This document shows positions 47 to 46,190 of a stretch of 64,000 nt of DNA, one piece after another. The DNA comes from an uncultured Lachnospiraceae bacterium (lineage in GTDB: Bacteria > Bacillota > Clostridia > Lachnospirales > Lachnospiraceae). The stretch lies in the NCBI GenBank assembly GCA_947053345.1, contig CAMRSM010000018.1, forward strand, positions 19,974-83,973, given 5' to 3'. The notes beneath the pieces are model-generated. The model had not been told where the DNA came from. It did no database searches and was given only the letters and a program-made list of their open reading frames with translations. How positions within the stretch are numbered: position 1 is the first letter of the stretch; every line of letters begins with the position of its first letter. The position numbers were made by a program, and so were the translations under genes.

Positions 47-523
47 TCACTTTTCTTCACTTGCCGCACCTCCTGCGCCCTTTGCTCTGTAAACTTTCGG
101 ATTTTCCCACGGTTCTTCCCTGCTTATCTTTGGATAGCCCGGAAAACGCAGATAGCTTGAAATCAACCGTTCCGCTTCTTCTGCGCCGTAGCATACCGCC
201 GCACAATACCCCTGCGCCGCCAGTTTTTCCAGCCATTCTTCCTGCGCTTCCGTGGTCTTGTTCCTGCCATACTTCATTTCGATATAAAGCCCGTGGAAGC
301 CGTTCATAGGCACTGGCAAGCATAAGTCCGGCACTCCCGCTTTCACGCCCTGCCGCTTCAAATTTGCCGCTTCCAGCTGGTTTCTGCTGCCGCCGTTCGG
401 CACATGGTAAAGTAGCTTCAATTCCGGGTGCTTCGCTTGCTGCCATCCGCACCACACAATCAATGTTTCCTGCTCTGTGGCTTCACTCCGTCTTCGGTTC
501 TGCTGTCTTGTGTAATATCCCAT
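47..523 (-). CDS. VRR-NUC domain nuclease
   Basis: ORF with LKLLYHVPNGGSRN...KRQGVKAGVPDLCLPVP...GLYIEMKYGRNKTTEAQ, typical of VRR-NUC. Confidence 0.85.
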   Translation of the reverse strand: MGYYTRQQNRRRSEATEQETLIVWCGWQQAKHPELKLLYHVPNGGSRNQLEAANLKRQGVKAGVPDLCLPVPMNGFHGLYIEMKYGRNKTTEAQEEWLEKLAAQGYCAAVCYGAEEAERLISSYLRFPGYPKISREEPWENPKVYRAKGAGGAASEEK

Positions 524-1097
524 TCCCGCTTACCTCCGTTTCGTCAAAGTGTGTTGCCATCATATCCGCAAGATGAAGCATGACAGCCAGCTTGCATTGA
601 TGAAAAGCATTGTCCAAATCATAGCCGCCGCCCTTTGCGTAGAAATCATATTGCCCCATGTGCCAGCGGATAGCCAGCACTTCTTCATCTGTCAAGTGCA
701 TAAACCGCATTATCAGAAATACCGACTTTTCCCCATGCCCTGCCGGAAAGTGCCTTGTTATGTCATAACGTCTGCTTGACCCCTCCGGGGCTTCCTTGTA
801 TGCGTCTATCTTGCACAAGTCATGCAGAAGACCGCAGACCGCCAGCGTTTCCACATTGAATATCTGCGGCGGCTTTATTGCTTCTGCCGCGATAAATGCC
901 AGACGGTGAAAAACATTGATTGAGTGCTTTGCCAGCCCTCCGGGTTCTGCGCCGTGGTGCTTCATGCTTGCCGGGGCTTCAAAAAATCCCTGCCCGCACA
1001 TCCATTGCAGCAAATCCGCTGCGCCGGGTCTGTGTATGTACGTTGTGAAGCATTTTTTATATTCCATTTCAGCCCGTATCATATATTGTGTCGTCAT
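483..1097 (-). CDS. HD-domain phosphohydrolase-like protein
   Basis: HHGAEPGGLAKHSINVFHRL...LAVCGLLHDLCKIDAYK. Internal ATG at 1097 chosen with upstream purine-rich RBS. Confidence 0.7.
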   Translation of the reverse strand: MTTQYMIRAEMEYKKCFTTYIHRPGAADLLQWMCGQGFFEAPASMKHHGAEPGGLAKHSINVFHRLAFIAAEAIKPPQIFNVETLAVCGLLHDLCKIDAYKEAPEGSSRRYDITRHFPAGHGEKSVFLIMRFMHLTDEEVLAIRWHMGQYDFYAKGGGYDLDNAFHQCKLAVMLHLADMMATHFDETEVSGNGILHKTAEPKTE

Positions 1098-1150
1098 GCC
1101 CTTTTCGCTTCCTTTCTGGTGGGCGTGTTTCCACACGCCCTATCAGTTCA

Positions 1151-2095
1151 TCAGTTTTCAGTTTCCAGTTCTTCAAATTCCACATAAGCGGAGCGGAAGC
1201 CAACACTGTAGCTGACGAGGGAACGGGCGTTGCTCAAGAACAACGCACCCAGACCGCCGTAGGAAGTGTGGTGGAAACAGGACCCCCGGAACGGCACGGC
1301 TTCTTCTTCCCCGCTGTCTGCGTATATGTACGCCGTTTCTTCCTCCATATTCTGCGGTACAATGCCCAGCTGCCGCAGGATTTCTGGCACTTCATCCAGC
1401 GCAATTTCCATTTCCTTGAAGCGGCAGCCGTCCCAGTCTTCTTCCGGGGCTTCCGTTGTCACTGTAACGCCGTCCCCTGCTGCCAGATAGATTGTTTCCC
1501 CTGCTGCCGTCTGCGCCCTCTGCCATGCTTCGCTATCCGGGGACAGGTCCGCAACTGCTGCGTCATTGTCCTTTATGTACTCAATCGCACCTTTTGCCAG
1601 CCGCAGCCCTGCAACCATTTCCCAGTTGTCCCCGCACAAATCGCAAACGCCGTCCGGCGTGTGGGTATGTGTCCATGTTACCGGTCCGCTGCCCGTCAGC
1701 GTATGCCCGTAATCGTACTTTTCGCCGCTCTCGCTTTCGTCAAAGTAATATTTTCCCCGTGCCGTGTTGCCGTGCGGAAGCGTCCCGCCCTCTATGCTCT
1801 CATTGTGCAGATATTCCCATTCTGCATTTGTCATCATGTGCCATCCCGGTCCCTTGCTGCGGCAAAGTGCGCTGGCGGCGTTGAAGTCAATGCAGTTCGC
1901 CGCTTTCGCATGCGGGATTGAACACGGAACGCCCTTGACCAGCGTATTTTCATACTTTGAAATATAGATTGCCTTTGCCCTCCTGCCGCAGACTTTAAAA
2001 ACCGGGTCAAGCGGCTTCCCTGCTTCCGGGGTAAACTTCACCATTACAGACGGCAACCCCGCATTGTCGAAAAGTACCACATTTTCATGCTTCAT
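1151..2095 (-). CDS. C-type lectin/FGE-fold protein, candidate DGR variable protein
   Basis: 314 aa with FGE-like segments (YISKYENT..., GWHMMTNAEWEYL, GDNWEMVAGLRLA) and C-terminus FRGSCFHHTSYGGLGALFLSNARSLVSYSVGFRSAYVE, resembling DGR targets. Confidence 0.75.
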   Translation of the reverse strand: MKHENVVLFDNAGLPSVMVKFTPEAGKPLDPVFKVCGRRAKAIYISKYENTLVKGVPCSIPHAKAANCIDFNAASALCRSKGPGWHMMTNAEWEYLHNESIEGGTLPHGNTARGKYYFDESESGEKYDYGHTLTGSGPVTWTHTHTPDGVCDLCGDNWEMVAGLRLAKGAIEYIKDNDAAVADLSPDSEAWQRAQTAAGETIYLAAGDGVTVTTEAPEEDWDGCRFKEMEIALDEVPEILRQLGIVPQNMEEETAYIYADSGEEEAVPFRGSCFHHTSYGGLGALFLSNARSLVSYSVGFRSAYVEFEELETEN

Positions 2096-8414: not shown

Positions 8415-8969
8415 TTACAGATACGCCGCTTTCGGCTCTCTCAACCCGTCCTTGTCCTTTATAAAGGCTTGTCGGCTGTCCAATTCATCAATGGTCCCTT
8501 TTACCGCTTCCCATGCCCCGCAAAGGTCTAAATATCTGAAAATCAGATTGCAGACCGTTGGAACAATCCACAAAAGGTCATTCTTTGAAAGCCGTCCTAA
8601 CATCCGCAGCCGCTTTTCCTTTTGGCTTTCTTCGTCTTCGTAGTTGTTTTCTCTCTCAAAAAGTATGGAAACATCCGTTTCCGTCAGTGTCAGCGCAACC
8701 GTATTGAACCAGAAAGCCGCTGTTTCCGTTTCTTCGTCTTCCTCTGCGAATTTGCGGGCTTTCCACGGTATTTCATGCCTATAAATATCGTCTTTTATTC
8801 TGCCTATGTCGCACCACAAGTCCCCTGCCGCATTTGCCATTTCCGTTAGAAGTTCGTCATAATATCCGGCATACTCGCTGTTACGGAAACATTTGTTTGC
8901 TCTGCCCTCCATGATTTCATCCACCATGTCAGTGATTGACCACCAATCTAATTGCCTATATAGTCCCAT
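8415..8969 (-). CDS. Hypothetical phage-like protein
   Basis: 184-aa ORF in the operon; no recognised family. Confidence 0.55.
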   Translation of the reverse strand: MGLYRQLDWWSITDMVDEIMEGRANKCFRNSEYAGYYDELLTEMANAAGDLWCDIGRIKDDIYRHEIPWKARKFAEEDEETETAAFWFNTVALTLTETDVSILFERENNYEDEESQKEKRLRMLGRLSKNDLLWIVPTVCNLIFRYLDLCGAWEAVKGTIDELDSRQAFIKDKDGLREPKAAYL

Positions 8970-9295
8970 CCCGTTTCCTCCGTTTCCGGGTTATAGCAAG
9001 AATGTGTTGACCCTACCAGCCACCCGGTCATATCAATGTCAATGTCTGTGCCGTCCGTGCCGTCAGATATGATTTCCATATCCCCGTAAAAGCCCCAGTC
9101 CTCCCCATCCGTTGTATGTATGAGAATATAGCCGCACTGCCGGTCCCGCTCCTGCTGCCGGGCTTCCTGCTGCTTCTGCATTTCCTGCACCGCTTTTTCT
9201 ATCAGCTTTTCTTTCGCATAGCTTCCCGCCGCAAATGCTGCGGCGCAAAGAAGAAGCGTCCCCAGAAGCACCGCCGCCCATTTTATTTTCTTCAA
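8948..9295 (-). CDS. Small membrane-anchored/secreted hypothetical protein
   Basis: N-terminal hydrophobic segment MKKIKWAAVLLGTLLLCAAAFAAGS. Confidence 0.5.
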   Translation of the reverse strand: MKKIKWAAVLLGTLLLCAAAFAAGSYAKEKLIEKAVQEMQKQQEARQQERDRQCGYILIHTTDGEDWGFYGDMEIISDGTDGTDIDIDMTGWLVGSTHSCYNPETEETGWDYIGN

Positions 9296-9780
9296 TCTTC
9301 TGCCGCCTCCTTTTCAATTTCAAATCTTAGTTTCATCTGCGCTGGGTATAGGTCCACTTTTGGCGCACTTCTTCCATTCCAGCGCAAACCACCGCACTCC
9401 CCAACACATTTCCATCCGGCAGCTTTCAAGCTGCTTCCGTTTTCGGATTTTAGAATATATGTAATCAATTTCTTATATCCTAAATTCCTTGCCGCCCTCC
9501 ATGCCGCAGAATATAAAAAGCTACACGCATTTCTTGTCCCATCTGTGCATAGTCTGTTCACTTCAAGCGTCAATCCATTATCAAGGTATCTGCTTACTGG
9601 TCTTCCGACTATCGCCACTCCCACGATTTTTTCACCGTCACTAGCTGCTATGCTGAATTTATGCCCCGCTACTGGCTTGTGGTGTCTGTGGTGTTGTTGA
9701 ACAAACGCATTTGCTTCTTTCAGCGTTATTGGTACTAATTCCAGCAATTTATAATATTTCTCCTTTCTGCACTGCCGCAC
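9292..9780 (-). CDS. XF1762-family-like phage protein
   Basis: PITLKEANAFVQQHHRHHKPVAGHKFSIAASDGEKIVGVAIVGRPVSRYLD, characteristic of XF1762. Confidence 0.75.
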   Translation of the reverse strand: MRQCRKEKYYKLLELVPITLKEANAFVQQHHRHHKPVAGHKFSIAASDGEKIVGVAIVGRPVSRYLDNGLTLEVNRLCTDGTRNACSFLYSAAWRAARNLGYKKLITYILKSENGSSLKAAGWKCVGECGGLRWNGRSAPKVDLYPAQMKLRFEIEKEAAED

Positions 9781-9974: not shown

Positions 9975-10169
9975 TTATCTCCCATATATTGTCTTCTGTG
10001 CTTCGTCTGCCCGGTACGGTGTACCGCTGCGCTTCAATTCATTGTAGATTGTTGCCCGGTGTACCCCAACGCTTTCAGCGATTTCAACCACCCTTATTCC
10101 CTGCATTGTCATAGCCTCAATGCGTTTTCTGTCCTCGTAATTCAAGTTTCGTTTTCCTTTTTTCCTCAA
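9975..10169 (-). CDS. Small helix-turn-helix protein
   Basis: 64 aa: LNYEDRKRIEAMTMQGIRVVEIAESVGVHRATIYNELKRSG (IS30/Hin-like HTH). Confidence 0.6.
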   Translation of the reverse strand: MRKKGKRNLNYEDRKRIEAMTMQGIRVVEIAESVGVHRATIYNELKRSGTPYRADEAQKTIYGR

Positions 10170-10203
10170 TGTCCATCAACCTCCTATTTCATGGCAAAAT
10201 AAA

Positions 10204-10299
10204 AGAACTGCGCCCGGCTCTAAACTCTTGACGCAGTTCTCATATTTCTGTATAAAAAAATGAACTGCGAAAGAGTTTAATAACTCTTGTCGCAATTCA
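10204..10299. repeat. Two adjacent hairpins sharing the AACTGCG...ACTCTTGwCGCArTT motif
   Basis: AGAACTGCG/CGCAGTTCT (10204-10240) and TGAACTGCGAAAGAGTT/AACTCTTGTCGCAATTCA (10261-10299). Confidence 0.7.
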
Positions 10300-10361
10300 T
10301 TTTACAATGAAGCAAGTTTTTTTCCGTTTGATTTGTCTGCGGTAAAACCCTGAAAAAAGAA

Positions 10362-10450
10362 CGGAGAAAGAGGGATTTGAACCCTCGCGCCGGTCACCCG
10401 ACCTACACCCTTAGCAGGGGCGCCTCTTCAGCCTCTTGAGTATTTCTCCT
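10362..10450 (-). tRNA. tRNA-Ser(GCT)
   Basis: Minus strand AGGAGAAATACTCAAGAGGCTGAAGAGGCGCCCCTGCTAAGGGTGTAGG...GGGTTCAAATCCCTCTTTCTCCG; long variable arm, GCT anticodon. Confidence 0.95.
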
Positions 10451-10964
10451 CACCTGAAAATTCGCTACCAAGGTATTGATTTTCATTGCATCATAAACGG
10501 CTTTCCGTCAGTGCATTAGCTAGTGTACCAAAAAACAGTTCTTATGTCAACACCTTTTTTGTTTTTTCTATAATTTTTTTTGCTTCTATATTTTAAACAC
10601 TGTATATGTCACCCTGTACGAAGATTGACACGCCGAATTTCCCGCTTATGACTGAAGCATATGCTGTTTACAAGTTCTGTGTACACACCTCATAGTATAC
10701 AGATATTCCTTTCTTAATTTCAACAAAGCAACATTTGAGCTTCCCATCTCCTCTCCCCCTTCTATCCAGGCACCACTTAAACCAACTCTTCCCGCTGCCA
10801 AAAACATTATCAACACAAAATCTTCCTATCTGATTGCCAAACCACCAAAAAACAGTTAAAATAGAATCATGCAGCAACCAAAAAGAAATCAACTACCTGA
10901 ACTGCCTTACAATCAATTTTAATAAATTGCCTAAGTAATAAAGAAGAAACGAGGAAAAACCACT

Positions 10965-11972
10965 ATGGAAATCCAACCGATCCGCCTTGGAAATATCCTG
11001 CTCCCCTCCAATGTCTTTATGGCACCGTTAGCCGGATACACCTGCTTCCCATTCCGGCAGATGGCGTATAAGCTTGGTGCGGGACTGTGTTTTACGGAGA
11101 TGGTAAGTGCCAACGCGCTGAAATATCAGGACAGGGCAACCAGCCGCCTCCTTTTCTGCCCCGAATATGGCGAGCGCATCCGGGCTGTGCAGCTGCTCGG
11201 CGGCAAACCGTCCGTCATGGAACAGATGGCCTGCAGTGAACTCTTGCAGGATTTCCAGATCATTGATATCAACATGGGATGTCCCGTCCCGAATGTATTT
11301 AAGAGCGGGGAGGGCTGTGCGCTCATGCTTGACATGCCAAGGGCTTCCGCTATCATCCGCGGCTGCAAAAAGAGCGGCAAGATCATCACTGTCAAATGCC
11401 GAACCGGAATTCAGGAAAACCATATGTTCGCGGCGGAATTCGCGCGTATGTGTGAGGATTCCGGCGCGGATCTTGTCACCATACATGGGCGGTCGCGCAG
11501 CATGATGTACAGCGGCATTCCGCATTACGATGAAATCCGGCAGGCAAAAGCCGCCGTTTCCATCCCCGTGATTGCCAACGGCGGTATCTTTTCCGCACAG
11601 GATGCGGACAAGGTCATGGAAGAGACTGGGGCAGACGGAGTGATGATCGGCCGCTATGCACTTGAAAATCCTTTCATATTCAGCGAATTGACCGGAAAAC
11701 CACCTGAAATGAATATTTTGCAATTTTTATTGTATGAGATGGAAATTACATCCTGTTTTTATAACGAAACTTTCACCATCTCCCATATTCGTAAATTGAC
11801 CGCCAACGCCATGAAAAAGCGTAAAGGAACCAAAAAATACAAGGAACTTCTTTACCGTGCCGGAAGTGCGGAGGAATTGGTCGAAGTAATGAAAATGATA
11901 TTTTCCGGGGAAGAAGGCTTTGAATACGCCTTCCACCGACCTTTGCAACTATTCCTTGGCAATAAAAAATAA
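10965..11972 (+). CDS. dus: tRNA-dihydrouridine synthase
   Basis: IRLGNILLPSNVFMAPLAGYTCFPFRQMAYKLGAGLCFTEMVSANAL; DINMGCPVPNVFKSGEG; ANGGIFSAQDA. Confidence 0.9.
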   Translation: MEIQPIRLGNILLPSNVFMAPLAGYTCFPFRQMAYKLGAGLCFTEMVSANALKYQDRATSRLLFCPEYGERIRAVQLLGGKPSVMEQMACSELLQDFQIIDINMGCPVPNVFKSGEGCALMLDMPRASAIIRGCKKSGKIITVKCRTGIQENHMFAAEFARMCEDSGADLVTIHGRSRSMMYSGIPHYDEIRQAKAAVSIPVIANGGIFSAQDADKVMEETGADGVMIGRYALENPFIFSELTGKPPEMNILQFLLYEMEITSCFYNETFTISHIRKLTANAMKKRKGTKKYKELLYRAGSAEELVEVMKMIFSGEEGFEYAFHRPLQLFLGNKK

Positions 11973-15000: not shown

Positions 15001-16126
15001 ATTGTCCTGTTACCACGATATCTTCCACGCACCTTTCCCGGAAACCGTGCGGATGATCTTTTCCAGTGCACTTAGCTGTTTTGATATAGAAGCCATGACA
15101 ACGCTCTGCGGTTATCATGGCTGCGGGCGCAGCATAAAAATTCCGCAGGGGATCCGGAGGATTGAAGCAGAAGTATTTTATGACTTTCTGATGCTCGAGG
15201 ACATCCACATCCCGGAAAGCGTGGAATACATCGGTCCGAGGGCATTCCACAAAACTGCCTGGCTGGAAAAACAGCGGTGTTGTTCCCCGGTGGTGACGGT
15301 CAATCATATGCTGGTGGACGCATCCACCTGTACCGGAGAAGTAACGGTGTCGGAAGATACCCGCTTAATCTGCGGCTGGGCATTTGCCAACGGACTACAG
15401 ATCACAAAAATCCATTTTCTCCCGTCATCGCTGAAAGTGGAGCCTTTTGCTTTCCGCAACTGCATTTATTTAGAGGAAATCACTCTTCCGGGGGGTGAAA
15501 CCATCCGGTTACACGGGATCTCGGACCGCAGAAGGGAACTTCCCCCTCTCGCAAAACAGGTTATTGCAGACCGCCTGAACTGCTTTAAAACAGATTCGGA
15601 AGGGGTGCTTGTTGAATGTACCGGAAACATATCAAAATTACTTGTTGCAGACGGGGTCACCGCGATTGGGGCACATGCTTTCCAGGACAGCAATCTCTTG
15701 ACGGAACTCATTCTTCCGGAATCCGTGACGGAAATCCGTACTGCTGCGCTGATGAACTGCAAATGGCTGAAAACTGTCCGCGCAAGCGCGGTTGAAACGA
15801 TCGGCGACATGGCTTTCTCCGCCTGCGGCGTACTGGAAACCGTGGAATTATCGGAAGGATTCACAAAAATCGGTGCAAGGGCATTTGAACATTGCACCTC
15901 ACTGCGGGAAATCCTGCTGCCCGAAGGTATTGAAGAAATCCCGGAACGGGCATTTTTCCGCTGCCACAGTTTGGGGCATATCCACATCCCGTCCACTGTA
16001 AAATACATTGGCAGGGAGGCTTTTGCCTTTTGTGAACAGCTTTCCGTCACTTCCGTCCCTGCCGACGCGGCTGTCGGGGAACGGGCATTTTTCGGAACCA
16101 AAGTAAAGGAACCGGAAACTATGTGA
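12002..16126 (+). CDS. Giant leucine-rich-repeat (BspA-like) protein
   Basis: 1374 aa with many repeats of the type I..GAF.GC.SL..I.LP.SL..I; no obvious signal peptide or anchor. Confidence 0.9.
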   Translation: MTNNFNAQDGTFLSYQGREEAVTVPEGIHTIAEDAFKACISLKKIVLPRSLRRIMPRAFKGCRNLNELEIPEGVSYVGEYAFHRCHSLKTICLPASVEELGNCAFLYCDSLREVHIPGVRRLGSQAFLNDTLLEKITISRELDESCIRDVFTSCGRISNIAFADGTSYAVPDLVGAAYTDTLPSVIRKIAADVLTMFELNGSCLMRFLTNLRHVEIPEGITHIGKSCFFDRRGILSVTLPSSLKEIESRAFRNCISLEKVTFRTEQTEIHKDAFKNCTSLKQLILPNGREFCLQGLAPLSGQEIPPLVQTVRSQVLGNFRLCGSVLLKYLGNESRVIVPDGITSVAEEAFAGKESIDRIVLPESVRGIGDGAFRGCLLLQTIQLPSSLQRIGKGAFENCVKLLRVSLPNSITKLENMTFRRCRSLAEVKLPSNLREIGEQAFYACSSLRGIAFPDTLTSIGTMSFYRCAALKSVFLPESIQRIGCLAFAQSGTREAVISGDGKEFGNDLFADCAGLTSLVCGTGVRHLPDKLAFGCPALTEVTLPDSLESVGRDVFRKTPFLRRWVEELQQTFLAQDDGTCKNACSGSPSPAAKNRIFWDGSGLSGEVRLSGQTQIIAGGAFYGNTNVTSIMLPDTVRQIGTAAFKGCSSLTQITWPHGLCTAEAEIFSGCTALAGIENAPAWHQIHKRAFYNCQNLTHLNLRSVKYIGAEAFVQCSIRISPVGNADFIGENAFMETSFTTLPENSEPLFPDLLSADPYIEVPPFHPNPRIIGSIAVAGNEAFGELTIPEGTTGIAPYAFFRNKGLKKLYLPQSLRFIGEGAFIGCQNLEEVIFLDNGCRIGARAFEKCTKLKEVSLCGTCLAKAVFAHCTSLQTAFFSAVPVLGESLFEGCTALREFSSDHDHPVTQINASCFRGCRQLNRIDLSGVQTIAPYAFENCDALETITVSGNIFLDDHAFQDCGGLTQIQILGDAAALSLREYALSGCTALKYITAENCIWELSCYHDIFHAPFPETVRMIFSSALSCFDIEAMTTLCGYHGCGRSIKIPQGIRRIEAEVFYDFLMLEDIHIPESVEYIGPRAFHKTAWLEKQRCCSPVVTVNHMLVDASTCTGEVTVSEDTRLICGWAFANGLQITKIHFLPSSLKVEPFAFRNCIYLEEITLPGGETIRLHGISDRRRELPPLAKQVIADRLNCFKTDSEGVLVECTGNISKLLVADGVTAIGAHAFQDSNLLTELILPESVTEIRTAALMNCKWLKTVRASAVETIGDMAFSACGVLETVELSEGFTKIGARAFEHCTSLREILLPEGIEEIPERAFFRCHSLGHIHIPSTVKYIGREAFAFCEQLSVTSVPADAAVGERAFFGTKVKEPETM

Positions 16127-16139
16127 GAGGGGAAACTAT

Positions 16140-17201
16140 ATGAAATACCGCAGACTAGGCCTGACGGACTGCCATGTGTCCGAGGTCGGCTTTGGCACCA
16201 TCCCAATCCTAAAAGGAAGCGTTCCCGTCCTGCCGGATTATTACAACTTAGAAGACGATGAGGCACTTGCTGTGATGGAGCACGCTTTCCGTCTTGGCTG
16301 CAATCTGTACGACACTGCGATTGTCCCTGAATATGGAGATGCAGAGATAAAACTTGGAAAATTTGCCGCGCGCATTGGGCGGAGCCGCATCATCATTTCC
16401 GACAAAGCACGCTTTTTTGACGGAAATGAAATGTACCGTGCCGTCCTCAATTCCTGTGAAAATCTTGGCACATATGCAGATATCTACTTTATCCATCAGG
16501 CAGATGCCGCACATGAGGAGGAGATTTTCAAAAAAGGCGGCGCGTTGGATGCACTCACCGAACTCAAAGAAATGGGGAATATCCGTTTCACCGGGATTGC
16601 CTCACATTACTATGACATCCTGCTGCGGGGAGCAAAAGATCCGCGGGTGGATGTGCTGCAGGGCAGCGGTAATCTTTTTGAACGCGGGATGCTTGAGCGC
16701 GTCAAAAAAGAACCCCTCTTCCGCCAAAAGGGATTCTTCGTGAATAAAGTATATGCCGCCGGGCTGCTGCCTGCATTTTTCCCGCCGCATGCCCTGATCT
16801 CTTCCGTTTTGTCCTACCCGGTCTCAAGCGCCTTAATCGGTATCGGAACCTGCGGTCAGGCGGATGCAGCAATGGCACAGGAATACACGGAGTATGTCCT
16901 ACCTCCTTTTACGGAAGTGCTCTCCTCGTTAGAGCGGGAATTTTCCCCCATCCCATGCGACCGCTGCCAGAGATGCCGCTGTCCGCTCGGAACAGAAATC
17001 CATACGGTTTTCCGGCAATACCAGTATTATTTTATGGGAAAGGACTACTGGGCACTGCAGAAACTTGCCCTGGGAATACAGGAAAGCGCAGGGCTGTGCC
17101 GATCCTGTACGGACATGCCCTGCCTTTCCATGTGCCCTGCGGGTATCCGGATCCCGGATGAAATGCAGAAACTAAAACAACTTGTGGATGCCCACTTATA
17201 A
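16140..17201 (+). CDS. Aldo/keto reductase with C-terminal ferredoxin-like Cys cluster
   Basis: MKYRRLGLTDCHVSEVGFGTIPI; C-terminal CDRCQRCRCPLG...CRSCTDMPCLSMCPAGI. Confidence 0.85.
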   Translation: MKYRRLGLTDCHVSEVGFGTIPILKGSVPVLPDYYNLEDDEALAVMEHAFRLGCNLYDTAIVPEYGDAEIKLGKFAARIGRSRIIISDKARFFDGNEMYRAVLNSCENLGTYADIYFIHQADAAHEEEIFKKGGALDALTELKEMGNIRFTGIASHYYDILLRGAKDPRVDVLQGSGNLFERGMLERVKKEPLFRQKGFFVNKVYAAGLLPAFFPPHALISSVLSYPVSSALIGIGTCGQADAAMAQEYTEYVLPPFTEVLSSLEREFSPIPCDRCQRCRCPLGTEIHTVFRQYQYYFMGKDYWALQKLALGIQESAGLCRSCTDMPCLSMCPAGIRIPDEMQKLKQLVDAHL

Positions 17202-35483: not shown

Positions 35484-35930
35484 TCACCATTCCCCTTTTT
35501 GTTTCTTTGCATAATATCAGATAGATACATCATATAACAAAATCGGAAATTTTGCAAGTGATAGTCACTTCTTGAAACGCCGCAAATTTTGTTTTATGGT
35601 ACGGGCCGGTGGATAAATGGTGGAATTTCAGTGGAAGAGGCGTTGAACAAGCTGGTTGTGGATAACAAAATAAGCATTATACACGTGGAAAAAAGCCTGA
35701 AATACTCGTAAAATGATGGAATATGGGAAAAATAATAAACGACAACCAAGACATTATCCACATCTTATCAACGAGTCGTGGATAACTTTTAAAAGTTATA
35801 GAAAAACCGTGAAATTTTTATGGCGAATCCAAAGAAAAGACTTGACTTGTCCATATGATGCGAATATAATATTAGGGTGCTATTTAATCGAAAATTGTGT
35901 GCAGACGCATGTTAAGGAGGTGTATTTGTT
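35484..35930. promoter_or_regulatory. oriC region (dnaA-rpmH intergenic)
   Basis: DnaA-box matches TGTGGATAA (35657), TTATCCACA (35754), near matches GGTGGATAA (35608), TTATACACG (35677), CGTGGATAA (35777). Confidence 0.75.
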
Positions 35931-36065
35931 ATGAAGATGACATTCCAGCCGAAGAAGAGATCCAGAGCTAAGGTTCATGGCTTCCGCAAGAGAATGAGTA
36001 CCGCAAATGGCAGGAAGGTTCTGTCCGCCAGAAGGGCAAAGGGAAGACATAAGATTTCTGCATAG
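35931..36065 (+). CDS. rpmH: 50S ribosomal protein L34
   Basis: [44 protein letters not shown], translated from sequence; not in the ORF track. Confidence 0.97.
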
Positions 36066-36184
36066 GTCGCATTATTGTGGCCTATCTTCTCTCATTGGAT
36101 AAAATGTCTGATTCGGATTTGTCTTATAACAAAAATGCCGGATGATTACAAAGCTGCATTGAGTGGCAGAATGAGAGGAAATTA

Positions 36185-36532
36185 TTGTTAAATTCATTAA
36201 AATCAAACAATGAATTTGGTGTTGTTTACAGAAATGGAAAATCCTACGCTAACAAGTATTTGGTGATGTATGCGCTGAAGAATGATTTGAACAAAAATCG
36301 TATTGGTATATCTGTAAGCAAGAAAGTCGGGAATAGCGTAGTAAGGCACCGGGTAACGAGATTGATCAGGGAGAGTTACCGGTTGGGTGAGGCTACATTT
36401 CATACTGGGTACGACATAGTAGTTGTCGCAAGAGCAGGTGCAAGGGGAAAGAATTTTTCTGAGATCGACAGTGCAGTGAAGCATCTCGGAAAGCTGCACC
36501 GGATCATGAAGATGCCGGTGGCAGAAGAATAG
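36185..36532 (+). CDS. rnpA: Ribonuclease P protein component
   Basis: [29 protein letters not shown]; position after rpmH. Confidence 0.95.
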
Positions 36533-36539
36533 AGCCAAA

Positions 36540-36752
36540 ATGAAAAAGGTACTTATTTTTTTCGTTCGGATATACAGAAAATATATATCGCCGTTAAAGG
36601 GTAGGCCGTCTTGTAGATATTTTCCTACCTGCTCTCAGTATGCAATTGAAGCATTGGAAAAATATGGCGCGATCAAAGGAAGTTATCTTGCTTTGCGGAG
36701 GATACTTCGCTGTCATCCTTTTCATAAAGGAGGCTATGATCCGTTGCCATAA
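36540..36752 (+). CDS. yidD: Membrane protein insertion efficiency factor YidD
   Basis: [59 protein letters not shown]. Confidence 0.97.
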
Positions 36753-36800
36753 TTTGATGCTTCAATTTTTTATTTCATTAGTCCAAAGGAGGATTTTTCG

Positions 36801-38255
36801 TTGAATCTTATGTTTTTAACCCAGGTCGGGGGGATTCTGAAACCGTTTGCGTGGGTTTTCGGAATTGTAATGAATGCAATCTATGAATTTGTTAGTCTAA
36901 TGAATATCCATAGCATTGCAGTATGTGTCATTATCTTTACATTTGTAACAAAAATGTTGATGCTTCCGCTTACGATCAAGCAGCAAAAAGCAACCAAGCT
37001 TTCCTCTCAAATGAATCCTGAGATTATGAAAATCCAGGAAAAATATAAAGGGAAAAAAGATGAGGCTTCGATGCGCAAACAGCAGGCGGAGATGCAGGCG
37101 GTATATGAAAAGTATGGTACAACTCCTATGTCAGGCTGTCTGCCGCTGCTGATCTCCCTGCCGATCATGTTCGCCTTGTACCGCGTGATCTATGCGATTC
37201 CGGCATATGTAAATGATATCGGGGAGATGTATGGTACGATTGCCGATCAAATCATGTCGATCCAGGGATATGGACAGGCAATGCTTTCCTTTGTTAAGGA
37301 GAACGGTATAGCAGTAAGTGGATTAAAGCCATTGATTGATGTTGTCAAAGGTGTGGATGATATCACTTACAATATTATCACGCTCACAAAGGAAAATTTG
37401 ATAGATATTATGTACCAGTTTAACACAAGCACATGGGAAGCGTTTCGGAACGTGAATCTTGCGGATGCCGAATCATGGCTTAACACGATTGATATCACAA
37501 AGGTAATCCAGAATTATAGCCTTGGGGTTTCCGTGGAATCCATCCAGCCAGTCGATGTGGCAGGTTTTGTGGCTTTGGTTCCGAATATACAGGAATCTGT
37601 TACGGAAATCATAAGTGTAAATAGCTTTTTGGGTGGACTTAATATTTTGAATGCACCAGGATGGTCCTTTCCAGGTATCATCATTCCTTTGTTAGCAGCA
37701 TTGACGCAGTTCGTGCAGAGTAAGGTAGCAATGGCAGGCAACAAGCAGCAGAATAATGTGGACAATCCGGCGGCCCAAAGCATGAAGATGATGAATTATG
37801 TGATGCCTCTTATGTCGATGTTTTTCTGTGCGATGCTTCCAATTTGTGTGGGCCTATACTGGGTCGCAAGTGCGGTTTTTGGCACAATACAGACGATTTT
37901 TATCAACCGTTACATGGATAAAGTTGACGTAACGGAGTTGATGGAAGCAAATGCGGCAAAAGCAGCAAAAAAGCGTGCAAAAAAAGGGATCACGACCGGT
38001 TCGCAGATGGCGGAGGTGGCAAAAACATCTACAAAATCCATTCAGACAGAAGAATCAAAGAAATTTAATAATGCATATGATTATAAAAATAATCCGTCTT
38101 CTGGTAAAAACTCAAATAAGGGAGCAAAAGCGGGTGAGTATAAACGCAGTGATGTTTCCTACAGTGCGAGCAGCATTTCTGCAAATGCGAATTTGCTGAA
38201 ACGCAATTTTGAGAGACAGAATGCTGAAAATACTGAAAACACGGAAAAAGAATAA
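36801..38255 (+). CDS. yidC: Membrane protein insertase YidC/OxaA
   Basis: YidC/Oxa1 core MLPLTIKQQKATKLSSQMNPEIMKIQEKYKGKKDEASMRKQQAEMQAVYEKYGTTPMSGCLPLLISLPIMFALYRVI. Confidence 0.96.
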   Translation: MNLMFLTQVGGILKPFAWVFGIVMNAIYEFVSLMNIHSIAVCVIIFTFVTKMLMLPLTIKQQKATKLSSQMNPEIMKIQEKYKGKKDEASMRKQQAEMQAVYEKYGTTPMSGCLPLLISLPIMFALYRVIYAIPAYVNDIGEMYGTIADQIMSIQGYGQAMLSFVKENGIAVSGLKPLIDVVKGVDDITYNIITLTKENLIDIMYQFNTSTWEAFRNVNLADAESWLNTIDITKVIQNYSLGVSVESIQPVDVAGFVALVPNIQESVTEIISVNSFLGGLNILNAPGWSFPGIIIPLLAALTQFVQSKVAMAGNKQQNNVDNPAAQSMKMMNYVMPLMSMFFCAMLPICVGLYWVASAVFGTIQTIFINRYMDKVDVTELMEANAAKAAKKRAKKGITTGSQMAEVAKTSTKSIQTEESKKFNNAYDYKNNPSSGKNSNKGAKAGEYKRSDVSYSASSISANANLLKRNFERQNAENTENTEKE

Positions 38256-38336
38256 ACTTTCACTATTTCTGTTTTGGATGGTATCAATTTTGAGTAAGAT
38301 TGTCAGCCGTTTGTACGGCGGAATGAGAGGAATAAG

Positions 38337-39233
38337 ATGGACGAATGGAAAGAGTTTAGTGCTAAAACAGTGGATGAGGCATTGACAGAAGCGTTGATTC
38401 AACTTGGAACGACCTCGGAGAATATCGAATATGAAGTGATTGAAAAAGAAGCAAAAGGTTTTTTGGGTCTTGGAAGCAAGCCGGCAAAAATCCGCGTGAG
38501 GAAAGTCATTAAATCCGTTGAAGATAATGTCGTGGATTTCCTTCATAAGGTTTTTAAGGCGATGAATCTGGAGATTACAGTTGATGTGTCTTATGATCAG
38601 GAAGAGGAGACCGTGAACATCAATCTTGTCGGAAGCGAGATGGGTGTCCTGATCGGGAAGAGAGGACAGACCTTGGATTCCCTGCAATATCTCACAAGTC
38701 TGGTCATTAACAAGAATACAGACGGTTATCTCAAGGTCAAGCTTGATACTGAGAATTATAGGGCAAGACGCAAAGATACTTTGGAGAATCTGGCAAGGAA
38801 CATTGCATCAAAGGTTAAGAGGACACATAAGCCTGTTTCCTTGGAACCAATGAATCCATATGAGAGAAGAATCATCCATTCCGTCCTCCAGAATGACCGG
38901 TATGTTGAGACGCACAGCGAGGGGGATGAGCCATTCCGCAAAGTGGTAGTAACGCCAAAAAGAAATGTACGTGATTACGATAACAATGGTGGATACAATA
39001 ACGGAGGCTACCGCAATGGTTACCGTAACCGTTTCGATAACGGAAGATATGATAACGGCAATGGAATCAAAAAGTATAGTAAAAAGGAATTTCATAAGAA
39101 GTACGGTGGAAATACAAAGGATTACAGTACAGATTACAAGAAAGATTATGCGGCATATCAGGAGCAGAAAGCGGCAGCAAAGCTTGCGGCAGAAAATGTG
39201 GCAAAGGACGAGTCAGTGGATACAGTTGAATGA
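38337..39233 (+). CDS. jag: Jag/KhpB RNA-binding protein (Jag-N, KH, R3H)
   Basis: Jag-N KTVDEALTEALIQLGTTSENIEYEVIEKEAKGFLGLGSKPAKI; KH GVLIGKRGQTLDSLQYL; R3H; then an N/G/Y/R-rich tail. Confidence 0.95.
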   Translation: MDEWKEFSAKTVDEALTEALIQLGTTSENIEYEVIEKEAKGFLGLGSKPAKIRVRKVIKSVEDNVVDFLHKVFKAMNLEITVDVSYDQEEETVNINLVGSEMGVLIGKRGQTLDSLQYLTSLVINKNTDGYLKVKLDTENYRARRKDTLENLARNIASKVKRTHKPVSLEPMNPYERRIIHSVLQNDRYVETHSEGDEPFRKVVVTPKRNVRDYDNNGGYNNGGYRNGYRNRFDNGRYDNGNGIKKYSKKEFHKKYGGNTKDYSTDYKKDYAAYQEQKAAAKLAAENVAKDESVDTVE

Positions 39234-39244
39234 TTATAATGAGG

Positions 39245-39282
39245 AGGTTTCCCGGTGCAGTGAGGGCTGGGAAACCTTTTTC
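39245..39282 (+). terminator. Rho-independent terminator after jag
   Basis: AGGTTTCCC...GGGAAACCTTTTT. Confidence 0.7.
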
Positions 39283-39380
39283 GGATATCGTAAAGAAGAA
39301 AAAAACAGAAAAATAGGAACAATTTGATACATTGTATTTTGATCGGCGATTTTTCGTGGGAAGGAGGATATGTGATATTT

Positions 39381-40775
39381 ATGGAGACAGATACGATAGC
39401 TGCGATTGCAACCGGACTTAACAATGCCGGAATCAGTATAATCCGGGTGAGTGGTGATGCTGCGGTCGAAGTAGCAGACCGCATTTTTTATTCGAGAAAG
39501 GAAGGATTGCATTTAAAAGATGTGAAAACCCACACCATCCATTATGGTATGATAAAGGATGGGGATATTTTTCTGGATGAAGTTCTTGTTTCGGTTATGC
39601 GGACACCAAACAGTTATACGAAGGAAGATGTTGTTGAGATAAATTGCCACGGTGGAATCGTTGTCACAAAAAGAATACTGGAAACAGTGTTAAGAGCCGG
39701 TGCGCGTTTGGCAGAACCAGGTGAATTCACGAAGCGAGCCTTTTTGAACGGGAGAATTGACCTGTCCCAAGCAGAAGCAGTTATGGATATTATACATGCA
39801 AAAAATGATATGGCTGTGAAAAATTCTGTCCGCCAGTTAAGAGGGGATATGCATAAACAAATTTCACAGCTGAGGGATCAGATATTGCACGATATTGCTT
39901 TTATAGAAGCTGCACTGGATGATCCGGAACATATCAGTATGGACGGCTTCCCTGAAAAACTGGAGAGAAATATTTCCGGTTATATGGATAGATTAGATAA
40001 AATGTTAAGAACAGCTGAAAATGGGAGGATGATGAAAGAAGGGATTAAGACGGTTATTCTTGGGAAACCGAATGCCGGAAAGTCATCATTATTGAATTTT
40101 CTAATGGGGGAGGACCGGGCGATTGTTACGGATATTCCAGGTACAACCCGTGATGTTCTGGAAGAAAACGTAGTAATGAATGGGATTTCCTTAAATTTGG
40201 TTGATACTGCCGGAATTCGGTGGACAGAAGATGCTGTAGAAAAGATCGGTGTGGATAAAGCAAGGGGAGCAGCAAATGAGGCAGACTTGATACTTTTTGT
40301 TGTGGATTCCTCTGTTGAGATGGATAGCAATGATGATGAGATATTGGATGCGATTGGCTCGAAAAAAGTAATTGTGGTTTTAAATAAATCTGATTTGAAA
40401 TCTGTTGTTTCCGAAGAAGATATTGTGAGGAGAATGAAACAATTTTCTTTTACAGAAACAGAGGTTATTCGTATTTCTGTAAAAGGGCAGACAGGAATGG
40501 AAGAGTTGGAAAGAAAAATAGCCAGCTTGTTTTTTTCAGGAGAAGTTTCCTACAATGATGAGATTTATATAACAAGCGCCAGACATAAAACAGCATTGAT
40601 GGAGACAAAAAGAAGTCTGGAGCAAGTAATGGAAAGTTTGCGGATGAATATGCCGGAAGATTTTTATTCTATTGATTTGATGAATGCTTATAAGGAGTTG
40701 GGTAGTATCATAGGGGAAGCTGTGGATGAAGATTTGGTAAACATGATTTTTAAGGAATTTTGTATGGGAAAATAG
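39381..40775 (+). CDS. mnmE: tRNA modification GTPase MnmE
   Basis: METDTIAAIATGLNNAGISIIRVSGDAAV...GKPNAGKSSLLNFLMGEDRAIVTDIPGTTRD...FCMGK. Confidence 0.97.
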   Translation: METDTIAAIATGLNNAGISIIRVSGDAAVEVADRIFYSRKEGLHLKDVKTHTIHYGMIKDGDIFLDEVLVSVMRTPNSYTKEDVVEINCHGGIVVTKRILETVLRAGARLAEPGEFTKRAFLNGRIDLSQAEAVMDIIHAKNDMAVKNSVRQLRGDMHKQISQLRDQILHDIAFIEAALDDPEHISMDGFPEKLERNISGYMDRLDKMLRTAENGRMMKEGIKTVILGKPNAGKSSLLNFLMGEDRAIVTDIPGTTRDVLEENVVMNGISLNLVDTAGIRWTEDAVEKIGVDKARGAANEADLILFVVDSSVEMDSNDDEILDAIGSKKVIVVLNKSDLKSVVSEEDIVRRMKQFSFTETEVIRISVKGQTGMEELERKIASLFFSGEVSYNDEIYITSARHKTALMETKRSLEQVMESLRMNMPEDFYSIDLMNAYKELGSIIGEAVDEDLVNMIFKEFCMGK

Positions 40776-44686: not shown

Positions 44687-45577
44687 ATGGCAGTAAAACA
44701 TGGATTGGGAAAGGGATTGGATTCGCTTATCACTTCAAAGCTTGAAGAAAATCCGGCAAAGGGAAGTGTATCCGAAGATGTTTCACGTGAAACATCAATA
44801 AAAATCACACAGTTGGAACCAAATAAAAGCCAGCCAAGGAGACACTTTAACGAAGATTCCTTGCAGGAACTGGCGGATTCAATTAAGCAGCATGGTGTGA
44901 TTGAGCCGTTGATTGTACAGAAAAGAGGAAAGACATATGAGATTGTTGCAGGAGAGCGCAGATGGAGGGCAGCAAGGCTTGCAGGGCTTAAGGATGTTCC
45001 GGTTATAGTAAAAGAATATTCTGATCAGGAAGTTTTTGAAATTGCCCTGATTGAGAATATTCAGCGGGAAAATCTGAATCCAATTGAGGAAGCATTTGCT
45101 TACAAGAAACTGATTGAGGAATTTGGACTGAAACAGGACGATGTGGCAAACCGTGTAGGAAAAAGCCGTGTTGCCGTGACAAATTCTATGCGGCTTTTAA
45201 AACTGGACGAACGCGTGCAGCAGATGCTGGTAGATGACATGATCACAAGCGGCCATGCAAGGGCATTGTTGTCTTTGTCCGATATGGAGCTGCAATATCA
45301 GACTGCCATGAAGATTTTTGATGAGAAATTAAGTGTGCGCGAGGTTGAACGACTGATCAAAAAACTGACGGAAAAAGAACCGGAAAAGCCGGAAAAAAAG
45401 CCACAAGAGCATGAAGCTGTCTATCGTGACTTGGAAGAAAAGCTGAAGACTATCATTGGCAGTAAGGTTACAATTAACCGGAAAGCAAAAGACAAGGGAA
45501 AGATTGAGATTGAATATTATTCTTCTGATGAATTGGAGCGTATCATTGACTTAATGAACCAAATACAAAACAAATAG
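44687..45577 (+). CDS. parB: Chromosome partitioning protein ParB/Spo0J
   Basis: MAVKHGLGKGLDSLI...VAGERRWRAARLAGLKDVPVIVKEYSDQEVFEIALIENIQRENLNPIEEA. Confidence 0.97.
   Translation: MAVKHGLGKGLDSLITSKLEENPAKGSVSEDVSRETSIKITQLEPNKSQPRRHFNEDSLQELADSIKQHGVIEPLIVQKRGKTYEIVAGERRWRAARLAGLKDVPVIVKEYSDQEVFEIALIENIQRENLNPIEEAFAYKKLIEEFGLKQDDVANRVGKSRVAVTNSMRLLKLDERVQQMLVDDMITSGHARALLSLSDMELQYQTAMKIFDEKLSVREVERLIKKLTEKEPEKPEKKPQEHEAVYRDLEEKLKTIIGSKVTINRKAKDKGKIEIEYYSSDELERIIDLMNQIQNK
44779..44794. promoter_or_regulatory. parS site inside parB
   Basis: Exact TGTTTCACGTGAAACA, encoding part of DVSRETS. Confidence 0.97.
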
Positions 45578-45674
45578 GGAAACCAAGAAAGAAAACTTGT
45601 TGTATTCAAGCTTACAGGTAATGCCAGGTATGTATTTTATTTACATTAAGGCACTGCAGAAAAGGGGAGTTTAT

Positions 45675-46190
45675 ATGGATATATTTCAGAAAGCAGGGAT
45701 TGATGCAGGGTATGTGATTTTGGGGTTGTTAGCGGTTGATCTCATATTGATTATTTTGTTTTTGGCTTTGTTTGTCCAACATTCGAAGATGAAAAAGAGA
45801 TATCAGACATTTCTTCAGGGCGAAAGTGGGAGTAGTCTTGAGAAGAGCATTTTGAAAAAGTTTGCGGAGATTGACCGGCTCACAGAAGAAAATGTGAAAT
45901 TGATGGCGGATGTCAAGCAAAATTACAATGATATCCAGACTGCATTTCAGAAGGTTGGTTTAGTGAAATATGATGCTTTTAAAGAAATGGGAGGAAGGCT
46001 CAGTTTTTCCCTCTGTCTATTAGATAATAATAACAACGGGTTCTTGATTACATCTATGCATACGAGAGAGGGCTGTTACACATATTCGAAGGAAATCATC
46101 AAGGGTGAATCCTATGTAGTATTGGCCGAGGAAGAAAAGCATGCACTTGAGCAGGCAAAGGCGAGGGCAGGAACTGAGGAGTTGGAGTAA
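45675..46190 (+). CDS. DUF4446 family protein
   Basis: TM segment, coiled coil, VGLVKYDAFKEMGGRLSFSLCLLDNNNNGFLITSMHTREGCYTYSKEI. Confidence 0.85.
   Translation: MDIFQKAGIDAGYVILGLLAVDLILIILFLALFVQHSKMKKRYQTFLQGESGSSLEKSILKKFAEIDRLTEENVKLMADVKQNYNDIQTAFQKVGLVKYDAFKEMGGRLSFSLCLLDNNNNGFLITSMHTREGCYTYSKEIIKGESYVVLAEEEKHALEQAKARAGTEELE

Follow-up and report, generated by a model that had tools for sequence, protein, structure and literature searches.

A probable remote second target of a phage DGR in a Lachnospiraceae prophage, with a phased CTG ladder downstream of its variable repeat

The window, i.e., the whole stretch of 64,000 nucleotides that was analysed, corresponds to bases 19974-83973 of contig C18 in a host assembly of 4.13 Mb (82 contigs). 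It includes part of a prophage whose genes, followed leftward on the minus strand, encode a replication initiator, a methylase, a radical SAM protein, the protein studied here, an HD protein and a nuclease; beyond the nuclease, the translations indicate ParA/ParB-like proteins and terminase, portal, capsid, sheath and tape-measure genes. The features on which the argument depends are as follows.

1151..2095, minus strand: putative remote target gene of a diversity-generating retroelement (DGR), encoding 314 aa with a C-type-lectin/FGE fold (open reading frame, AlphaFold2, Foldseek, orthologues in phages with complete DGRs)
1187..1288, minus strand: variable repeat (VR), 102 nt, RGSCFHHTSYGGLGALFLSNARSLVSYSVGFRSA, hypervariable at AAY-derived codons among close relatives
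1144..1168, minus strand: four-rung CTG ladder CTGGAAACTGAAAACTGATGAACTG, NCTG at 7-7-8 nt, spanning the stop codon and lying between the VR and the hairpin
1121..1140, minus strand: hairpin/cruciform GGGCGTGT-GGAA-ACACGCCC, 8-bp GC-rich stem and GRNA loop, 46 nt after the VR
483..1136, minus strand: HD-domain phosphohydrolase-like gene, next downstream of the target; a homologue also follows the target in phage contigs G304 and L024-L026
6972..8000, minus strand: G2P-like replication initiation protein of the same prophage (PF23343, phrog_3584)

The initial annotation placed the gene among early or replication-type phage genes, and its neighbours (the G2P-like initiator, a C5 methylase, an HD domain and a VRR nuclease) agree with this. 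The translated C-terminus of the 1151-2095 product is the peptide quoted there. An AlphaFold2 model of the protein (pLDDT 85.9, pTM 0.89) was compared with solved structures by Foldseek, and the best match, over the full length, was TaqVP of a Thermus aquaticus prophage (PDB 5vf4; TM 0.84-0.86, E 7e-27), followed in the PDB ranking by Mtd (E 1.7e-4) and then by PvdO and TvpA. An FGE/SUMF1 enzyme was rejected as the main reading, as the Pfam FGE-sulfatase score lies below the cut-off (18.9 versus 23.3 bits) and the best fold matches are DGR variable proteins. The model thus assigns the protein to the FGE-subtype C-type-lectin fold and to the DGR variable proteins of the TaqVP/Mtd/TvpA class. 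By analogy with these homologues, from which the surface position is carried over, the VR would lie on the ligand-binding face, and a randomised face would be displayed by 11 AAY-derived codons together with partly variable neighbours. In IMG/VR, relatives of the protein were found at 91% (L024), 88% (L025/L026), 81% (L027/L028) and 66% (L029) identity. No further copies of the target were found across five relatives from its own genus, and a scan of genome contigs returned nothing above 44%. Weak N-terminal matches on contig C9 are not targets; the frame encodes a zinc-ribbon-type protein inside an identical 8.5-kb duplication.

The region first proposed as variable, 1151-1290, does contain the VR, and the repeat proper occupies 1187-1288. 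The earlier remark that nearly all C-terminal codons end in C or T was borne out, since all eleven variable codons (273 TGT, 275 CAC, 276 CAC, 279 TAC, 286 TTC, 288 AGC, 289 AAC, 293 CTC, 295 AGC, 296 TAC and 297 AGT) are NNC or NNT. That this is more than chance follows from the comparison with L024. Among the 35 VR codons, 14 differ (13 non-synonymous changes and one synonymous), whereas 33 of the 279 codons outside the VR differ, with 13 non-synonymous and 20 synonymous changes. The changes within the VR fall nearly all in the first and second positions of NNC/NNT codons, and nearly every predicted AAY-derived codon differs among relatives that are at most 91% identical. Judged from the sequences, this is the signature left by adenine mutagenesis acting on AAY codons, not by ordinary drift. 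Ordinary synonymous-biased substitution among relatives had been named as the result that would speak against a DGR; the opposite, DGR-style substitution, was seen. Together, the L024 comparison and the TaqVP match (TM 0.86) sustain the original idea that a protein of the C-type-lectin/FGE fold carries a DGR variable region here.

The absence of a reverse transcriptase (RT) from the window, already remarked upon, extends to the whole 4.13-Mb assembly, in which neither a Pfam model nor protein searches found one. An A-tolerant pattern search of the same genome for a template repeat (TR) returned only the VR itself. Contig C18 ends 20 kb to the left of the window, within the tape-measure gene. 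When the 1213-aa tape measure of the related phage contig G304 was used in tblastn, its residues 3-335 were located at C18:5-1003, and the remainder was nowhere in the assembly; thus, the whole tail-DGR-lysis stretch of the phage appears to be unassembled. A contig edge inside the tape-measure gene explains why the RT is missing, and this absence is therefore no evidence of loss. RT and TR, not found in the host assembly, are present in G304 and in a second phage contig, L105. The initial annotation had left three options for the machinery (to the left, acting in trans, or lost). Of these, a leftward location within this same phage is the best fit, because in G304 the tail target, the accessory protein Avd, the TR and the RT come after the point at which C18 breaks off.

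G304 (IMGVR_UViG_3300037400_000491, 46,222 bp, containing L029) is syntenic with the window prophage and carries the following.

189-635: bAvd (bAvd / DivGenRetAVD over cut-off)
712-813: TR
1065-2165: RT
15218-16171: remote target, then the HD gene
35905-39546: tape measure
45084-46142: tail target

The TR of G304 differs from its remote VR at 15 positions and from its tail VR at 13, and every one of these mismatches (15/15 in the remote VR) falls at a TR adenine. A bAvd gene is also carried by L107. The arrangement of one TR, beside Avd and RT, with two VRs was found in six phages (G304, G305, G282, G146, FP_Lagaffe and Dulem virus 37), each with one VR in a tail-module gene and the other in the early or prophage-end region. 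Across the 12 TR/VR comparisons that they provide, 159 of 166 mismatches are located at adenines of the TR; such adenines account for 21-24 of the 102 positions. The distance from the TR to the remote VR is about 9-37 kb, from ~9.5 kb in Lagaffe to ~37 kb in G282. A prediction that could have failed was also made, in which window-type VRs with AAY restored at the variable codons served as a predicted TR and were scanned against IMG/VR. Four contigs matched, all four with an adjoining RT; the closest, L105, holds a tail-target VR, a TR and an RT. Compared with the L105 TR, the window VR shows 14 differences, 12 at TR adenines and 2 elsewhere, and the L025 VR shows 16 adenine mismatches and one other. 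Thus, as far as the TRs of relatives can tell, the window gene carries the substitutions at TR adenines that are expected of a DGR target, and by sequence it is of the remote type, i.e., the second target of a two-target DGR. The initial annotation saw a single target; the second-target status emerged from the relatives.

In a tree of 30 targets, 15 of them remote, from which the VR had been removed, a branch with support of 100/99 parts the remote targets from tail and other targets. The window target is both encoded in the early region and phylogenetically apart from the tail targets. Within a genome, the VRs of both targets share a flavour (RGS-F..TS.GG or RGG-W..G..AGVF), as would be expected when a single TR repeatedly overwrites both. 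Taken together, the tree and the shared flavour suggest, at the level of sequence comparison, that the remote gene looks like an old, maintained paralogue under shared diversification and not like a recent copy. No description of the remote paralogues as a lineage was found in the literature. Further remote-type targets were noted at L089 6948-8039 (G076) and L087 8104-9243 (G029), with a Cys-rich N-terminus (CTRNC...) and in a non-tail setting beside an SSB-like gene. Contig L090, which is the same contig as L088, has tandem remote-type targets at a prophage end (8673-9662 and 9986-10975) with two VR flavours, one of which matches a TR located elsewhere in that genome, on a different contig (two non-A and six A mismatches).

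Efficient retrohoming of BPP-1 requires a GC-rich hairpin of 7-10 bp with a GRNA loop (Guo et al. 2011, PMC3240598). The window hairpin fits this consensus, has a DNA fold z-score of -3.64, and thus provides the GRNA-loop hairpin of a DGR target; such a hairpin was found after most VRs examined, remote and tail alike, and after no TR. The CTG ladder that separates it from the VR occurs once in the 64 kb, against 0.00 matches expected from shuffles. In 0.84 Mb of phage and flanking DNA, scanned on both strands with a spacing of 7 or 8, there were 18 ladder matches, 17 of which immediately follow a VR on its 3' side. A blind scan of 2.9 million viral contigs for ACTG at 7-7-8 spacing gave 108 stretches. 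In the viral loci examined first, 43 of 71 distinct ladder sites had an upstream VR signature and four more had the hairpin only. Overall, with one mismatch allowed in the hairpin search, 67 of 94 ladder sites had a VR signature and/or a hairpin (57 had both), a fraction that is not fully independent because some of the loci were already known before the scan. When the same letters were spaced 8-7-7, 22 stretches were found, and 3 of 22 sites were at DGR VRs; with scrambled letters (GTCA at 7-7-8), there were 34 stretches, and 0 of 31 sites were at DGR VRs. The 27 ladder sites left unexplained are close in number to the control counts. The NCTG ladder therefore predicts DGR targets. It was not found in BPP-1, Klebsiella KPN U2874 or Pseudomonas Bise and is thus not common to all DGRs; two rungs were seen in VHML, and a TCTG variant in BalMu-1. 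A both-strand pattern scan near the TR and RT detected no complementary ladder. The sequence of the 4-bp BPP-1 spacer can be altered without loss (PMC3240598), and a spacer that carries sequence information would therefore be a real difference. No mention of the ladder was found in the literature searched, whose coverage left out most subscription journals.

Among the closest known systems is that of the Faecalibacterium phage FP_Lagaffe. It, too, has FGE-fold targets together with Avd and RT, and its single TR provides for one target in the tail module and for another, ~9.5 kb distant, in a different module; the second VR has 11 of 11 mismatches at TR adenines. It differs in phage and host and in its remote protein, which is extended at the C-terminus and whose grouping with the window clade is only loose. 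One Lagaffe target gene was described by Cornuault et al. 2018 (PMC5883640), and a 2024 paper reports two VRs for Lagaffe_CP (PMC11792537), so two-target phage DGRs are already known; a close system with a second target in Roseburia phage Shimadzu is known here through its citation in the same paper. What is new is the conserved non-tail (remote) paralogue lineage and the spaced NCTG motif. The Bordetella phage BPP-1 (Mtd) likewise directs adenine mutagenesis into a C-terminal lectin-fold VR followed by a GRNA-loop hairpin, but it has one target, in the tail module, and the hairpin lies 4 bp after the VR with no CTG ladder between them. TaqVP shares its fold with the window protein over the whole length (TM 0.86), whereas the consulted part of its description (PMC6328139) places it beside its own avd and RT and does not mention a remote paralogue. 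The tentaclin DGRs nd4 and nd12 (PMC10743442) also use one TR for two lectin-fold targets, which, however, are of unlike protein architecture, one having its VR near the 5' end.

We consider it highly probable (roughly 0.92) that the window gene is a remote second target of a phage DGR. An intact phage would have its Avd, TR and RT where the tail module ends. Reverse transcription of the TR transcript would introduce errors at adenines, and the resulting cDNA would replace the VR of the nearby tail target as well as that of the distant window-type gene. The landing site would be marked by the 3' end of the VR and the GRNA hairpin and probably also by the phased CTG ladder between them. The phage in the window presumably possesses this cassette too, past the end of the contig, and is presumably still capable of homing. 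It is very unlikely that the prophage has instead lost its DGR and retained the VR as a frozen or decaying relic. The RT is indeed missing from the assembly, and a relic of this kind may be present in G076, whose remote target has an altered VR start and whose assembly gave no RT match, so that orphaned targets may exist. However, the prophage breaks off where a contig ends within a structural gene, and the remaining phage is unassembled; the open reading frame in the window is intact, as are its hairpin and ladder; and in the VR, most variable sites but almost no others differ from those of close relatives. Rewriting in trans by the DGR of another prophage or of the host appears even less probable. 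Such an event would be conceivable, given that retrohoming depends on TR/VR homology and on cis signals and that homing to remote targets clearly takes place in the relatives, but no RT of any kind was matched in the host genome, and the cognate TR is on the same phage in the relatives.

Where the remote target of this phage DGR acts is a separate matter. Its fold, and the analogy with other variable proteins, suggest a second ligand-binding (receptor or surface-binding) protein with about a dozen randomised residues on the binding face, and we lean slightly towards a virion-associated binding protein. At somewhat less than even odds, and compatibly with the DGR reading, the protein may instead act in the lysogen (lysogenic conversion or superinfection control). 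Its position varies, from the middle of the early region in the window to the outermost prophage gene in G282 and the Lachnospiraceae contig L090, and the tail targets are ~13 residues longer at the N-terminus, the alignment starting only at that point; both observations would suit a role in the lysogen. Conversely, the protein is of the same fold family as the tail targets, and no signal peptide or membrane segment was seen in it by eye, which leaves surface display in a lysogen unexplained. As for the ladder, it may act in homing. The wider proposal, according to which it is an unrecognised cis element by which one lineage of DGRs recognises targets at any distance, enabling the tail DGR to diversify a non-tail paralogue, maintained as its own clade in phages of gut Firmicutes, for a purpose other than virion attachment, is tentative, and the odds are against it. 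It is unlikely that the ladder is a by-product of shared protein C-termini. In the window, it does partly encode ELETEN, but across targets it occurs in differing reading frames and often partly or wholly past the stop codon, which indicates that it is kept at the DNA or RNA level, and the nucleotide-only scan, controlled for spacing order and letters, recovered DGR targets.

Large DGR surveys have sought targets near the RT, and Roux et al. 2021 state that their own pipeline would miss remote ones (PMC8144416); a sequence tag independent of the RT would allow such hidden targets to be listed. How DGR cDNA finds its site is so far incompletely understood (PMC12875486), and the ladder, if it is a homing signal, would offer a handle on this step. 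The conserved non-tail lineage poses the question of what a temperate phage gains from randomising a second binding protein.

Several minor observations concern the same genome. Contig C9 of G000 contains two copies of an 8.5-kb stretch that includes an integrase gene (L007 1-8512, L008 334-8845). The copies are 100% identical and ~38 kb apart and could reflect either the duplication of a mobile element or an artefact of assembly. In the window, a radical SAM-type phage protein (3242-4366, phrog_9298) adjoins the C5 DNA methylase gene, and the early region of L091 encodes a similar protein. At the right end of the prophage, 9292-9780 weakly resembles the Mom DNA-modification family, its score of 22.6 bits lying below the cut-off of 27.1. 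The first host-type gene to the right of the prophage, at 10965-11972, is by its sequence what we take to be a tRNA-dihydrouridine synthase (Dus) gene, and the prophage attachment site may lie near it.
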